Source: Verrucomicrobiota bacterium
Lineage (GTDB): Bacteria; Verrucomicrobiota; Verrucomicrobiia; Verrucomicrobiales; DEV007
NCBI GenBank assembly: GCA_020629815.1
Contig: JAHDCN010000071.1
Coordinates: 1-11,106, forward strand
DNA: 11,106 nt
Direction of reading: 5' to 3'
The translations under genes were made by a program, and so were the position numbers. Positions 2,784-9,645 of this stretch are shown here, piece by piece; the first letter of the stretch is position 1, and every line of letters begins with the position of its first letter. The notes beneath the pieces are model-generated. The model worked only from the letters and a program-made list of their open reading frames with translations. It was not told where the DNA came from and made no database searches.

Positions 2784-4535
2784 TCAGCCCAACATCAGGC
2801 GCTCCATCATGGCCGCCAGTTTTTCCGGGCCAATCCCCGGAACGTTTTCGACGTCATCAAAGGTTTCGTAGGGCCGGTGATCAATCAAAGTCTGAGCCAA
2901 TGCAGGACCGATTCCCGGCAGGGTTTGCAACTCCTCCAAATCAGCATAGTTCAGATCGACAACGGGACCGTCCGGTTCACAGCCATCGCCATACTTTTCT
3001 TCGAAATCGTCGTCCTCTTGGTGATCTTCGCTGTGATCACTTTCGCCATCGAGATTTTCCGGTTCAACATGCTCTGCATCTTCCGGCTTGTCGGGCCAGT
3101 CCTGAATCGGTTTGTGCTCTTCCTCGCCATGATGCGGATCATCCCCATGGCCATAGTGATCCCCATGATACGGGTCATGATATGGATCGTTGGCATGATC
3201 CTCATCCCAATCCTGATGATCTTCGTGCCAGCTTTCGTCATGTTGAACCGTGCCGTCGGGACCGTGATCGCCGTGGTTTTCATCGTCGTAGAGGTGAGCG
3301 TGCTCTTTTTCGTATTGCTCGATCTCGCGACGGTGCAACTCTTCCTTCTCCTCTTCGGTCAGTTCGTCGGAAGACTTGGAATACAACTCCTCCATCCGAG
3401 ACCGGTATTCGGCTTCTTCTTTGGCCTCACGCTTCTCCCGTTTTCGTTCCAGGATACTGGCGATGAGAATACATATCTCATAAAGAATGACCATTGGTCC
3501 CGCCAGCAGCAGCAGCGTCATGATATCCGGTGGAGTCAAAATCGCGGCTGAAACCAGGATCACGATCCAAGCATAGGTTCGTGTCGATCGCATCACACGA
3601 GCGGTGAGCAGCTCCAGTTTTACCAGAATGGTAACGATAACCGGCAGCTGGAAGCTCAAGCCGAACACAAGAGTCAGGCGGGTGATAAACTTGATATACT
3701 CACCAATCCGATAGATCACGGACCCGCCTTTGGCTGCAACGATCACCAACTTGTCGCGGGTTTCGTCGTAACGGAACGCGAGGTTGGCATTTTGCTGAAT
3801 CGCAAACAGGTCGATCATGTAATTTCGAACCTGCTCTTTCATTTCGGGTGAGAGGCTCTTCGGTGCTGGTTGATCATCTGTCTTAGCTTCTTCCTCAGAC
3901 TTCGGCTCTTCTCCGGCAGGTAAAATACTCTTGCCGTCTACGCCGAGAAGAGGCAGCTCAGCAAGTGGCGCCTCCAAAGCTTTAGCCGCTGGATCCAAAT
4001 TCGAGAATCGCTCGACCTGGAAGGTGTAGAAAAATTTCAGCGCGATCGGTGAAGCCAGGAAGAACGCAAAGGAGGCCCCGGCCAGAAACAAGAGAAAGCC
4101 GACCCATACACCGGGAATGACCATCTTTTTCTCCACCTGTCGAAGTCCGGGAAGAATGAACTCGAACAGGAAGTACACCATCAAGGGGAAGGAAACGATA
4201 ATGGCCGCGAAAAAGGCGACCTTGATCATCAGCATTAACGCCTCCTGTGGGGCGAGAGTAATAAACTCGATCTGATTCCACAGGGTCACTCCGGGACCGA
4301 CATCGACCATTTTCGAAGGCCACTGGACGAATTCAAAGATCTGTTTGTGAAATGCGAAAGCCAGAATGGTGGTCACCATCAAAGTCAGGCCGATCTTTCC
4401 CAAGGTGACCCGCAGATCCTCCAGATGGTCGAGAAACGGTTTCTCGTAGGCATCGTATCCTTCGTCCGCACCGGGGCGGGCCCGGGCTGCATCTTCCCGG
4501 ACCTTAAAAAGTTTTTCGAAAGCTGATTTAATCAT
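2784..4535 (-). CDS. tatC: TatC with enlarged periplasmic loop and cytoplasmic His/Asp-rich tail ending in ComEA-like HhH domain
   Basis: TatC, inner-membrane receptor subunit of the twin-arginine translocase, which exports folded proteins; 583 residues against about 258 in E. coli. Core features: HLEDLR at 37-42, TM1 about 46-63, TM2 about 101-123, F126, P129 and E135 (matching E. coli F94, P97 and signal-binding E103), TM3 about 141-161, TM4 about 284-305, TM5 about 321-334, LTPPD at 333-337, TM6 about 340-361. Oddities: D40 sits where E. coli has E15; about 95 extra residues (173-275) lie in the TM3-TM4 periplasmic loop; after TM6 come a charged helix (364-412), a stretch with 15 histidines in 412-474, an acidic linker, and two HhH motifs (LPGIGPALAQ at 539-548, VPGIGPEKLA at 565-574). 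By TatC topology the tail is cytoplasmic. ATG 4535 is chosen because AGGAAG lies 9 bases upstream; a GTG at 4652 would add an atypical leader. No tatA or tatB is in the window. TatC identity is secure; the tail's function is unknown. Confidence 0.93.
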   Translation of the reverse strand: MIKSAFEKLFKVREDAARARPGADEGYDAYEKPFLDHLEDLRVTLGKIGLTLMVTTILAFAFHKQIFEFVQWPSKMVDVGPGVTLWNQIEFITLAPQEALMLMIKVAFFAAIIVSFPLMVYFLFEFILPGLRQVEKKMVIPGVWVGFLLFLAGASFAFFLASPIALKFFYTFQVERFSNLDPAAKALEAPLAELPLLGVDGKSILPAGEEPKSEEEAKTDDQPAPKSLSPEMKEQVRNYMIDLFAIQQNANLAFRYDETRDKLVIVAAKGGSVIYRIGEYIKFITRLTLVFGLSFQLPVIVTILVKLELLTARVMRSTRTYAWIVILVSAAILTPPDIMTLLLLAGPMVILYEICILIASILERKREKREAKEEAEYRSRMEELYSKSSDELTEEEKEELHRREIEQYEKEHAHLYDDENHGDHGPDGTVQHDESWHEDHQDWDEDHANDPYHDPYHGDHYGHGDDPHHGEEEHKPIQDWPDKPEDAEHVEPENLDGESDHSEDHQEDDDFEEKYGDGCEPDGPVVDLNYADLEELQTLPGIGPALAQTLIDHRPYETFDDVENVPGIGPEKLAAMMERLMLG

Positions 4536-4604: not shown

Positions 4605-4716
4605 AGGGCGCAAGGCTTCAACATGAAACGCGTGCCACACTCTCAAGGTCACGCAAAAACGTATAAATGCCCTCGATCTATGCTTGAATCCCTAATCCCT
4701 CGTGGTAAGAACGGCT

Positions 4717-4746
4717 TTGCAAAAAAGAATTGGCGGGAGCTATAAA
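4717..4746 (+). promoter_or_regulatory. sigma-70-like promoter for the PUR-alpha-like gene
   Basis: TTGCAA (4717-4722), an 18-base spacer, then TATAAA (4741-4746). Transcription would start near 4753, just before GGAGG at 4761-4765 and the ATG at 4780. This order argues against translation from the GTG at 4702, which lies upstream of the promoter. It would drive the PUR-like gene and possibly yicC and dgoK. Confidence 0.5.
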
Positions 4747-4779
4747 CTTTCGCAGGTCACGGAGGACAGAAATTTTACT

Positions 4780-5016
4780 ATGATTGGCTACGAAGAGGAC
4801 AATAAAAGAAGAGGGCCAGAGCCCCTGCATACCGAAAAGATTTTCGCGGACAGAAAAATCTTTTTCATGGATTTAAAAGAGAACGACCGCGGTCGGTTCG
4901 TGAAAATCACGGAAGACGTTCGCGGACGCCGGGACACCATTATGGTGCCGGCCGAGGTTCTCGAAGACTTTATTGAGGCGCTGAACAACGTTCAGGACGC
5001 CAGCGAGAACGCGTAA
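4780..5016 (+). CDS. single-repeat PUR-alpha-like nucleic-acid-binding protein (DUF3276-type)
   Basis: A 78-residue cytoplasmic protein made almost entirely of one PUR repeat (about 18-70). The core DLKENDRGRFVKI at 31-43 strongly resembles the repeat of eukaryotic Pur-alpha (aromatic strand, D-x-K-x-N, then K/RGRF-x-KI), followed by GRRDTIMVP at 49-57 and a helix EVLEDFIEAL at 59-68. Known bacterial one-repeat PUR proteins bind single-stranded or structured DNA and RNA, some as dimers; in Borrelia one acts as a regulator. Binding here is inferred. I chose ATG 4780 over GTG 4702 because GGAGG lies at 4761-4765 (a longish 14-base spacing), a good promoter sits between the two candidates, and the extra 26 residues show no PUR character. 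It is followed 50 bases later by yicC, itself an RNA-active family, suggesting a joint RNA-related role. Confidence 0.8.
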   Translation: MIGYEEDNKRRGPEPLHTEKIFADRKIFFMDLKENDRGRFVKITEDVRGRRDTIMVPAEVLEDFIEALNNVQDASENA

Positions 5017-5066: not shown

Positions 5067-5942
5067 ATGCGTAGCATGACCGGATTCGGCCGTGGCGAAG
5101 CTGCGGCAAATGGCTGGGAAATCTGTGTCGAACTGTCCGGTGTAAACCGGAAGCAGATCGATATTTCCGTAAACCTACCCGGATCGGTGGCAGATCTCGA
5201 ACCGGCGATTCGCAAAACGGTTTCCGGACAGGTATCGAGAGGGCGCGTCAATGTGCGAGTGCACCTCAAGCATACCGAAACCGGCGACAACGAGCTGTTC
5301 TTTGATGAAGAGCTCGCCAATCGCTACGTGAGCTCGGCGAAGAAGCTGGCAGAGGAAGCCGGCATCGAAACCGAAATACGGGCGGCTGACCTATTTCGCG
5401 CTCCTGGTGTTTTTCGAGTGGAAGAAGCTAAAGCTGAGTCAGATCAAATTCGCAAGCCTCTGGAAACGGCATTGGCGGCAGCTCTTGATCAGCTCACTTC
5501 TATGCAGTCGACAGAGGGGGAGCACCTTCGCGACGACCTCGAACAGCGACTACAAAATATCGAAGACGAAGTTGGGGAAGTGCTGAAACACTCACCCACA
5601 GTTGTGGACAACTATCGGAAGAACCTGTTTTCCCGACTGAACGAGTCCGGACTGGAGCTCAATCTGGACGACGAACGCGTTCTTCGTGAGATTGGAATCT
5701 TTGCCGAGCGCTGTGATATCAGCGAAGAGATCACAAGGATCAACAGCCACGCCAAGCAGTTCCGCACCTATTTTTCCAGCACTGATCCGGTTGGCCGGTC
5801 ACTGGACTTTCTTTGTCAGGAATTGAACCGGGAGCTGAACACGATCGGGAGCAAAGCAAATGATGCCCAAATTGCCCAAAGGATCGTCAATGCGAAGACC
5901 GAATTGGAGAAGATTCGCGAGCAAGTGCAGAACGTGCAGTAG
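5067..5942 (+). CDS. yicC: YicC family endoribonuclease
   Basis: A 291-residue cytoplasmic protein of the YicC/YloC family, the usual family length. E. coli YicC has been reported as an endoribonuclease that degrades small RNAs. Seen: the hallmark N-terminus MRSMTGFGRG (1-10), VNRKQIDIS at 26-34, the EGEHLRDDL helix at 150-158 leading into a charged helical arm, and the C-terminal DUF1732 block with FAERCDISEEITRINSHAK (212-230) and VGRSLDFLCQELNRELNTI (242-260), followed by GSKAND. All expected conserved blocks are present and in order. The ATG at 5067 places the family motif at residue 1; no clear Shine-Dalgarno precedes it. In many genomes yicC is followed by gmk and rpoZ, but here the next gene, 8 bases on, is dgoK. 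The upstream neighbour is the PUR-like gene. Confidence 0.93.
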   Translation: MRSMTGFGRGEAAANGWEICVELSGVNRKQIDISVNLPGSVADLEPAIRKTVSGQVSRGRVNVRVHLKHTETGDNELFFDEELANRYVSSAKKLAEEAGIETEIRAADLFRAPGVFRVEEAKAESDQIRKPLETALAAALDQLTSMQSTEGEHLRDDLEQRLQNIEDEVGEVLKHSPTVVDNYRKNLFSRLNESGLELNLDDERVLREIGIFAERCDISEEITRINSHAKQFRTYFSSTDPVGRSLDFLCQELNRELNTIGSKANDAQIAQRIVNAKTELEKIREQVQNVQ

Positions 5943-7191: not shown

Positions 7192-9645
7192 TTATTCGAC
7201 CTCGAGAGTAATCGCTTCGGTCTTGGTGAACTTCTCGCGAGTATCTGCAGATCTGCCGAGCGATGCGGCAAATCCCTCCCAAGGCTCAATATCACGTCGG
7301 CCGGCCCAACCAGTAAGCAAAACCTTTGAGCTTGAGGTCCGTGCATGAATCTTGCGAGGGCCAAAGCTTGGACCTTCCACTTTCATATCGCGAATGCCGC
7401 GAGGCAGCACTCGGATCAACTCATCATAGCGCTTGGTATTGTAACCCGGCTCAAAGCCATCCGCTTCCCACGAACTCTTATAGCGGTCACGGTCCTGTCG
7501 CGGCAGATTGAACACGACTGTATTCGGCTTCACCCCAAGACGAATCTCATCCAAATCAGTGAGCCCTTCCGCCGGTAAATCCTGTCCGAAATAGGTGTCT
7601 TTTCGGCCGATCTCATGTGCCAACCTTGGCATCCAGAACGAGATGTGAGCATGGTCTGTGCTGCCATCTTTCGGCGGCTCAGCTACATAGGTCGCATACA
7701 GTTTCTGGGTGCCAAGCCCTCCAAGGAACATGTGAACATCAAACTTGAGGTTATCTTCCAGAATCATCTTCCAGACAATCTTCTTCCCGTCGAACGTTGG
7801 AGGCTCTGCCAGTTTCTCAAACTTCCGGCGACGACCGCGGTATGCAGGGTCTTTCATCCGTTCCGGATCGCGCTTCCAACTGTGATACCAGAATCGAATC
7901 GGGTTTTGAATGTAACCGCCGTTTTCATCTTTCAAGAAAATCTCGGCTTGCGCCTCAGGTCCGTAAAAGACCGCATCATATGCCTTTTCGGACAGCCTAT
8001 GAATCTCCTCCATGTTTTCGCTCGGTTTCCACATGTAAGGCTCGGTTCCGATCATCGCATCGCGGGGAGTCGCATAGGTAAAGCTGGTCTCCTCGGTCAT
8101 GTCTTTCGGCTTGGTCAGCGTCAAAGAAGTTGGCTCGTCTTCTGGTTTGAAAATCGAAACGAGTGAAGGCAATGTTCTGCCCAGGGTACGTCGGGCAATT
8201 TTCTGGTCGAGAGTTTTCAGGTTGTCGGTCGTCTTCTCCGCCGGTTGCACGTAGGTGCGGATTTTGCGACGGCCTAGATTCTGCCCGATCTCTTTCGCGA
8301 GTTCCTCGTCTGCGAAATCCTCGAAGTCAGAGAAAATATAAAGAGAATCGATTTTCTGCTCGACCAGGAAATCAATCGCAGATGTCACCATGTCGCCGCC
8401 GCTGCGAATCGCCAGGAAGGAATTCGGGCGGGTTTTGAAAGTATCAATTAAGCGATCCACGTAGCGCTGTGGAGCTTTTCTCGGCAAATCGTGCCACAGG
8501 AACCAGTAAGGGGAGTGGGTATTATCTTCCCAGCGTGGCTTGACCTCATCAGGAATAATCAGTCTTACGTCCGGCTCACGAGTCCGTTTCCGCATCACGG
8601 TGTCACGCACATAAACAATCGGCGCGTCTTTGAAGTTTTTATCCACCTCACGAACCACGTGTGGCAGGAACTCAGCCATTGAACCGGAAACATCGAGAAT
8701 CACACCCAACACTTCGCCTTCCATTTTCTGGCCAAACATCATCTTCGACTCGCTGGACGTTTGCATCCCCATGTCCATCGAAGGAGCAAAATCGATTCCG
8801 GTAGAAGCGAATCCCATGTCGGAAGTGGATTCGACATCCACACTGGAAAAGGCAAAAGCGGAAGTAGCCTGCACAGACACAATATCTGTCATGGAACTGG
8901 CTGAAGAAGAAGCCGTTTGGGTTGGCCGCTTCATTGTCTGGTTCTCAATCGTTTCCTGCTGCTGCTCCGCCATTGACGAAGCCACAATCTGAGGAGCGCC
9001 CGGGCGCGGAGACTGAGTAACCACCAACATCAACGCAGCAATCACAGCCGCGTGAATCAAAACTGTCAAAACGATCGAATTCAATTTGTCGCGGCGCATG
9101 GAGACGAGACGCTTGCGCTCACTTTCCTCCTCGGCCTGCTGCAGCATCTCTGCCTCGGCAACCAATTCAGGATCGATTTCGTCCGGATTTCTAACAATAA
9201 CCGGCGCAGGGGCTTTCTGACCTGCCTTCGCTTTGGTCGGGGTTGGCTCTGCAACAGCAACCGCAGCTACCACTTCGTCATCCGCATCTTCCTCATCAGC
9301 GACTGCAGCAACGAGAACCGGCTCGTCAACTTCTGCTTCCACTGGCACAGCTGCTCCGGTGATCCTTTGAATCGCTGCGACCGCTTCGGCATTTTCAGGA
9401 TTCACGTCGAGGGCTGCCGCATAGATTCCGTGTGCTTGATCAGTCGCGCCAACCAGCTCGTAGCATTTGCCGGCGGCCACCAATCCAAGATCATCTCCCG
9501 GGAGTGATTCCGCACCGTTGATTGCTTCAATCGCATCATCATGCAATCCCTCTCCCTGACACGCTTGAATTAAAGCAAGCCGGGTTTCCCAATTTTCCGG
9601 GTCGGCTTCGAGGGACCCTTTCAGGGCATTAATAATCGCTGACAT
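7192..9645 (-). CDS. TPR / TonB-like anchor / VWA-domain envelope protein
   Basis: An 817-residue protein I cannot name. In order: TPR-like helices (about 1-95, with DPEN at 15-18 and NPEN at 82-85 spaced like TPR ends); an Ala/Val/acidic linker (97-150); a charged coiled stretch (155-188) ending in RRDK; one membrane segment (189-210); a Ser/Thr/Met/Gln-rich linker (222-305); a VWA domain (about 310-470); and about 340 residues of unrecognised sequence with aromatic-rich patches. Positive charges before the TM place TPRs in the cytoplasm and VWA in the periplasm. The TM segment TVLIHAAVIAALML (194-207) resembles the TonB anchor, with H198 aligning to E. coli TonB H20. VWA shows the MIDAS motif DVSGS (318-322), GGD at 416-418 where GGT is usual, and FSD ending at D440. 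Divergent from the sugar isomerase gene and 48 bases before the DUF2805 gene. Start ATG 9645 has only a weak AGAAAG before it. Architecture is clear; function unknown. Confidence 0.85.
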   Translation of the reverse strand: MSAIINALKGSLEADPENWETRLALIQACQGEGLHDDAIEAINGAESLPGDDLGLVAAGKCYELVGATDQAHGIYAAALDVNPENAEAVAAIQRITGAAVPVEAEVDEPVLVAAVADEEDADDEVVAAVAVAEPTPTKAKAGQKAPAPVIVRNPDEIDPELVAEAEMLQQAEEESERKRLVSMRRDKLNSIVLTVLIHAAVIAALMLVVTQSPRPGAPQIVASSMAEQQQETIENQTMKRPTQTASSSASSMTDIVSVQATSAFAFSSVDVESTSDMGFASTGIDFAPSMDMGMQTSSESKMMFGQKMEGEVLGVILDVSGSMAEFLPHVVREVDKNFKDAPIVYVRDTVMRKRTREPDVRLIIPDEVKPRWEDNTHSPYWFLWHDLPRKAPQRYVDRLIDTFKTRPNSFLAIRSGGDMVTSAIDFLVEQKIDSLYIFSDFEDFADEELAKEIGQNLGRRKIRTYVQPAEKTTDNLKTLDQKIARRTLGRTLPSLVSIFKPEDEPTSLTLTKPKDMTEETSFTYATPRDAMIGTEPYMWKPSENMEEIHRLSEKAYDAVFYGPEAQAEIFLKDENGGYIQNPIRFWYHSWKRDPERMKDPAYRGRRRKFEKLAEPPTFDGKKIVWKMILEDNLKFDVHMFLGGLGTQKLYATYVAEPPKDGSTDHAHISFWMPRLAHEIGRKDTYFGQDLPAEGLTDLDEIRLGVKPNTVVFNLPRQDRDRYKSSWEADGFEPGYNTKRYDELIRVLPRGIRDMKVEGPSFGPRKIHARTSSSKVLLTGWAGRRDIEPWEGFAASLGRSADTREKFTKTEAITLEVE

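Follow-up and report, generated by a model that had tools for sequence, protein, structure and literature searches.

The tatC locus and its ComEA-type HhH domain

The stretch of DNA analysed here, hereafter the window, comprises 11,106 nucleotides of contig JAHDCN010000071.1 from a Verrucomicrobiota bacterium of the order Verrucomicrobiales, and carries on its reverse strand a tatC gene that runs on into a long tail ending in a double helix-hairpin-helix (HhH) domain (Table 1). The TatC core is recognised by PF00902 (E=7.6e-54, 183.1 bits against a cut-off of 25.1) and by TIGR00945 (161.6 against 132.7), and residues 525-577 by the Pfam profile HHH_3 (E=1e-11; 45.2 bits, cut-off 27; two homologues, P0051 with 24.5 and P0096 with 22.8, score under it). 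The original prediction of a TatC and a ComEA-like double HhH in one frame is thus borne out, and the residue numbers given in it for the HhH motifs and the segment preceding them (526-537, 539-548 and 565-574) are exact.

Table 1. Features of the tatC-HhH fusion gene and its immediate context (positions in the window).
Feature	Positions	Strand	Details
tatC-HhH fusion gene	2784..4535	-	583 aa; ATG at 4535, stop included at 2784; single unbroken frame
TatC core, residues 36-364, with an insertion within	3444..4430	-	PF00902, TIGR00945; six TM segments are the family expectation
Insertion of ~100 residues (about 173-275), between both TatC profile matches	3711..4019	-	Profile matches
Conserved post-TM6 segment, residues 365-418	3282..3443	-	Around L(S/T)EEEK.EL..EIEQYE.EHAHLY
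Acidic His/Asp-rich linker, residues 419-518	2982..3281	-	Low conservation, length varies
ComEA-type double HhH domain and flanks, residues 519-583	2787..2981	-	Invariant Cys519, Arg554, Arg579
Divergent PurA-family gene (context, outside the fusion)	4702..5016	+	PF04845, E=1.3e-10
YicC-family endoribonuclease (context), beyond PurA	5067..5942	+	TIGR00255, 262.3 bits against a cut-off of 167.5

The core matches TatC over the curated cut-offs, and the fusion differs from known TatC by the insertion of ~100 residues and by a tail of ~220 residues, of which the ~150 between core and HhH domain are acidic and His-rich. The insertion is found throughout the same-genus alignment and by TatC topology we take it to be the second periplasmic loop; the C-terminal tail, by the established topology of TatC, presumably lies on the cytoplasmic side. 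TatC and HhH domains are each known; here TatC bears an additional domain that is conserved and presumably cytoplasmic, and searches of the open-licence PMC literature showed no description of a TatC-HhH fusion. In one study of TatC diversity, as described there, poorly aligned carboxyl termini were generally removed (PMC3827258).

Alignments to the structures 2DUY, 8DFK and 8DSS were made with a consensus-like query, whose best PDB match is the ComEA-related 2DUY (E=9.6e-12). Like ComEA, the domain consists of a pair of HhH motifs with a short loop between them and is as compact as 2DUY; however, it falls below both ComEA profile cut-offs (39.4 against 152.35 for TIGR01259 and 27.7 against 53.1 for TIGR00426), lacks the lysine equivalent to K63/K164 of ComEA, is acidic and, by topology, would be cytoplasmic, where ComEA is periplasmic or at the cell surface. 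The family and PDB matches also include PsbU, a photosystem II protein with the HhH fold, and the domain passes the Pfam cut-off for PsbU (PF06514, 31.9 against 24.5) but is far below the equivalog cut-off (NF002708, 32.7 against 85).

The PurA-family gene adjoins tatC in 26 of the 29 same-genus loci, within the available flanks. Two explanations from the gene neighbourhood were rejected. The PurA-YicC arrangement was considered as the reason for the fusion, and within the available flanks it is found only in genera g1 and g19. The C-terminal MLG of the protein could have been kept for the start signal of a downstream ABC-F gene; since an ABC-F match lies 3' of tatC in the window alone among the 29 same-genus loci (flanks of about 120 bases to 4 kb), the MLG is not explained in this way.

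Distribution and history of the fusion

Thirty-three of the 56 genomes searched belong to the same genus, and all 29 of their TatCs that were read to the stop codon end in an HhH domain within one unbroken frame. The fusion is therefore neither a chance event nor a false join, and the artefacts of assembly or frameshift against which the original prediction had warned are ruled out; nor is the tail missing in close relatives. In the other four same-genus genomes (completeness 63-86%) there were HhH-type matches without a TatC core (G006, G018, G022) or no match (G002). With residues 500-583 as query, 16 proteins including our own were retrieved from a collection of 5.8 billion proteins, and 16/16 carry precomputed TatC and HHH_3 assignments. 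The whole protein as query gave at least 1052 proteins above threshold, when the 8000 candidates sharing most words were scored, with a precomputed HHH_3 assignment in 118 of the best 120 of the 1052. The named records among the matches are Verrucomicrobiota, under labels that include Verrucomicrobiales, Verrucomicrobiaceae, Akkermansiaceae and Verrucomicrobiales bacterium BCK34.

The carriers belong to one family of mostly uncultured Verrucomicrobiales bacteria. A search of 74 genomes of the family, in 18 genera including our own, gave a TatC match in 66 (29 in the own genus, 15 in g18, g19, g20, g21, g24, g26 and g29, and 22 in other genera). All 13 TatCs read to the stop in g18, g19, g21, g24, g26 and g29 end in the HhH domain, while G075 (g18) and G079, the sole genome of g20, are cut by contig ends; the domain is seen in seven genera, the eighth genus of the clade not being readable to its end. 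An HhH match was found in 0 of the 21 TatCs read to the stop in the other genera of the family (G085 is cut) and in 0 of 17 read in other families of the order, for which 21 genomes were searched. A further contig scan gave seven loci, of which five named ones (L052-L056) are, by identical frame length and score, genomes already in the set (L006, L019, L023, L009 and L051) and the other two (L057, L058) are without an HhH match. A survey of 237 genomes of this class only, at E<=1e-6 and with the family represented by our own genome alone, located 40 HhH places outside that genome; 11 of these, the longest frames among them, were examined and none is a TatC, and the remaining 29 are frames of 358 aa or less.

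Where the HhH domain is missing, TatC ends in other ways. By eye, charged helix-like repeats close the TatCs of g15, g17, g23, g25, g27 and g28 (a type EELKxELKAEL, perhaps a single alpha-helix, at the C-termini of L099-L103, L105-L113 and L116, with masked letters in L109 and L116), and acidic low-complexity tails close those of g3, g16 and g22; in the one genome of g2 a SAP/HeH-like stretch replaces the HhH (L046:308-1924, forward strand; SAP_new25 E=0.012, below the cut-off). The EHAHL motif of the post-TM6 segment is common to several TatCs of family f3 without HhH, and the cytoplasmic arm thus seems, judged by this motif, to be older than the HhH domain.

In a tree of the TatC core the HhH carriers form one clade with support of 99/95 and one change of state. 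The tree comprises 65 rows and 263 columns, tail omitted and mostly-gap columns dropped, with 14 of the 29 same-genus TatCs and 15 rows from other families; the partial row L129 and further duplicate or partial ones (L092, L118-L121, L130) were excluded, L123 and L127, which contig ends truncate, are in the tree and outside the state count, and states were assigned per genus, hence L095, also truncated, is scored as lacking HhH. The family as coded is not one clade, g2, g16 and g22 standing among other families at weak forks. A tree of the HhH domain itself (49 rows, 56 columns) is poorly resolved and places the g29 domains with standalone proteins; a tree that groups all 18 TatC HhH rows scores 1.35 log units higher than the free one, and a single origin is not rejected (AU p 0.53). 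Given the one clade of the core tree a single old gain suffices, and most simply the domain would have been gained once in the ancestor of the clade and kept since, which is not proved for g29.

The domain is under purifying selection. Its dN/dS (NG86) lies between 0.00 and 0.37 in 47 of 48 pairs with a core dS under 1.2, the remaining pair being undefined. In the two closest pairs the HhH values, 0.07 and 0.12, compare with 0.14 and 0.40 in the linker and 0.01 and 0.02 in the core; many of the remaining pairs are near saturation at synonymous sites.

Residues kept and lost in the HhH domain

For the analysis of single residues we aligned 122 full-length proteins from several genera, those with 520 residues or more (of 123; P0008 dropped), which amount to only 12 clusters at 70% identity. 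Cys519, Pro521, Asn529, Leu539, Arg554 and Arg579 are invariant in all 122; column 583 is Gly in 117, and 116 of the proteins end in Gly, 98 of them in MLG. The C.P.GP stretch is missing in g24 and g29, so Cys519 is not shared by the whole clade. Judged by its spacing from the K63 position, Arg554 corresponds to R71 of V. cholerae ComEA, thought structural by the authors of that work (PMC3879209).

DNA binding in ComEA is described as dominated by one essential lysine, K63 in V. cholerae and K164 in B. subtilis (PMC3879209, PMC9747964), and the alanine mutant of the Geobacillus equivalent K166 as being without DNA binding (PMC9747964). At this position, residue 546, the window encodes Leu, and the alignment holds L in 71, M in 45, I in 3, T in 2 and V in 1, with a basic residue in 0/122. 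Of the residues nearby or in the second motif, 545 (the place of V. cholerae K62) is Lys in 85/122, 571 (the place of Geobacillus K195) is acidic in 95 and basic in 7, and 572 is Lys or Arg in 113. Both GxG hairpins are intact in 82 proteins and neither in 14, and 21 retain the first alone and 5 the second alone, so that at least one is lost in 40/122; on a quick tree the two hairpins need 8 and 7 changes. The domain is acidic, with a net charge of -15 to -1 (mean -5.9), at the end of a stretch from TM6 to Cys519 that in the 29 loci has a charge of -59 to -25 (mean -40) and 7 to 23 His. By comparison, the net charge is 0 to +5 in 12 small HhH proteins that stand alone (one a fragment; 10 come from same-genus genomes), and the proteins of these genomes that by eye are nuclease-like HhH proteins are mildly acidic (-4 to -1). 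The key lysine is, by eye, also missing in the 12 standalone proteins and in T. thermophilus 2DUY, and its absence is therefore not a mark of the fusion. Because both GxG hairpins, Lys545 and a basic residue 572 are each kept in most of the proteins, some phosphate binding is possible.

Among the small HhH proteins, those with a single TM segment (113-137 aa from stop to stop) occur in nine same-genus genomes (L059-L061, L063, L064, L067-L069 and L071) and are probably anchored ComEA homologues; none was found in our own genome, which is 69% complete. A basic stretch precedes their TM segment, so by the positive-inside rule their HhH is probably periplasmic. A further 62-aa frame at a contig end (L076) starts with a peptide that resembles, and that we take to be, a translated sequencing adapter, hence this contig end is probably contaminated.

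Possible roles of the cytoplasmic domain

The TatC core presumably functions in Tat export in the usual way, together with a TatA-type partner. TatA/B-family matches number one in 48 of the 56 genomes, two in 4 and none in 4, a TatA-family match being present in our own genome; from the single match in most genomes, the system is probably of the TatAC kind, without evident TatB, as known elsewhere (PMC13186574). The idea that the HhH stands in for a second TatA/TatB gene was rejected, as a single match is the norm throughout the order, whether or not TatC has the HhH.

The original prediction had offered two uses for the domain, a tether of the translocon to the nucleoid or a fold reused for protein contacts. 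In the former the HhH would bind chromosomal DNA and keep the Tat receptor near the nucleoid, which is in keeping with its ComEA-type sequence and best match to 2DUY, with the intact hairpins of 82/122 proteins and the basic residue 572 of 113, and with the SAP-like end (below the cut-off) of a TatC from another genus of the family. Nevertheless the key lysine is absent in all 122 proteins, the domain, itself acidic, sits on a linker with a mean charge of -40, and 40/122 have lost one or both hairpins while other residues stay invariant; the proposal is weakened by these sequence features and we regard it as decidedly unlikely. Protein contact appears to fit the evidence better. A rival is self-association, in which the HhH domains of neighbouring TatCs, or of TatC and another HhH protein, pair and aid the receptor oligomer where TatB is missing. 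HhH domains do pair in XPF-ERCC1, no TatB is evident here, and E. coli TatC is described as an obligate oligomer (PMC5102672); against this, other genera have the same one-gene TatA/B set-up and no HhH, and the HhH of the small HhH proteins is probably on the other, periplasmic side. This rival seems quite unlikely to us. The domain might also do no more than close off a long disordered arm with something folded and resistant to proteases, a place where any fold would do. The different arm ends of other genera (charged helix repeats by eye, SAP-like and acidic low-complexity stretches) speak for such a cap, but Cys519, invariant and located just beyond the Pfam domain, and the MLG of 98/122 proteins hint at a specific contact, and we consider a mere cap unlikely.

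The position of the arm, its richness in His and charge, and the invariance of residues other than the DNA-binding ones favour protein docking at the receptor. Thus, we propose, with about even confidence, that the ComEA-type HhH serves for contact with a protein, at the end of the cytoplasmic arm of a Tat receptor that has no evident TatB. PsbU is an extrinsic subunit of photosystem II that works by protein contact. In the proposed mechanism the acidic His-rich arm, probably flexible, would extend into the cytoplasm with the HhH at its end, and this cap would, as in PsbU, contact protein and not DNA. What it docks at the receptor would be a partner from the cytoplasm, a further Tat subunit or a cargo of the pathway. 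Some observations count against protein contact: 82/122 proteins retain both GxG, 85 have Lys at residue 545 and 113 a basic residue at 572, the standalone HhH proteins lack the key lysine as well and the nuclease-like ones are mildly acidic too, and the 122 proteins are only 12 clusters.

A bolder form of protein docking is a TatB-like role. The membrane-extrinsic part of E. coli TatB is likewise a charged cytoplasmic arm at the Tat receptor, and its functional His patch is described as needed for quality control of cargo folding (PMC9436932); here, in contrast, the arm belongs to TatC, and the likeness is one of position and composition. The HhH and His-rich arm may act in a similar manner, in cargo binding and a folding check, and TatC would then have grown its own cargo-checking arm, an acidic His-rich linker with an HhH that recognises a protein partner, the neighbouring genera bearing other end modules. 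We hold this to be possible, on the doubtful side. Against the docking reading as a whole, the His-rich linker is poorly conserved, His-rich tails are also found on TatCs of the family without HhH, and one review describes TatA/TatB function as not requiring their hydrophilic C-terminal domain (PMC13186574).

A cytoplasmic domain of TatC that is under selection and kept across several genera means that some bacteria have added a part to the receptor itself, which is usually drawn as minimal, TatC with TatA-type helices. TatC without its HhH is a defined construct for asking what the cytoplasmic face of TatC reads besides the signal peptide, and it bears on how TatB-less systems check their cargo. 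The domain is also an example of why a Pfam name alone is no ground for calling an HhH DNA-binding.

Two other proteins of the window are recorded here as observations in their own right. The first, encoded on the reverse strand at 7192-9645, has 817 aa and matches TPR profiles weakly; a TM segment and a VWA-like stretch are visible by eye. The second is a TIM-barrel protein (PF01261; 9793-10704, forward strand) whose N-terminal region contains MNRRSF; this could be a twin-arginine signal, and the protein is perhaps a Tat cargo.
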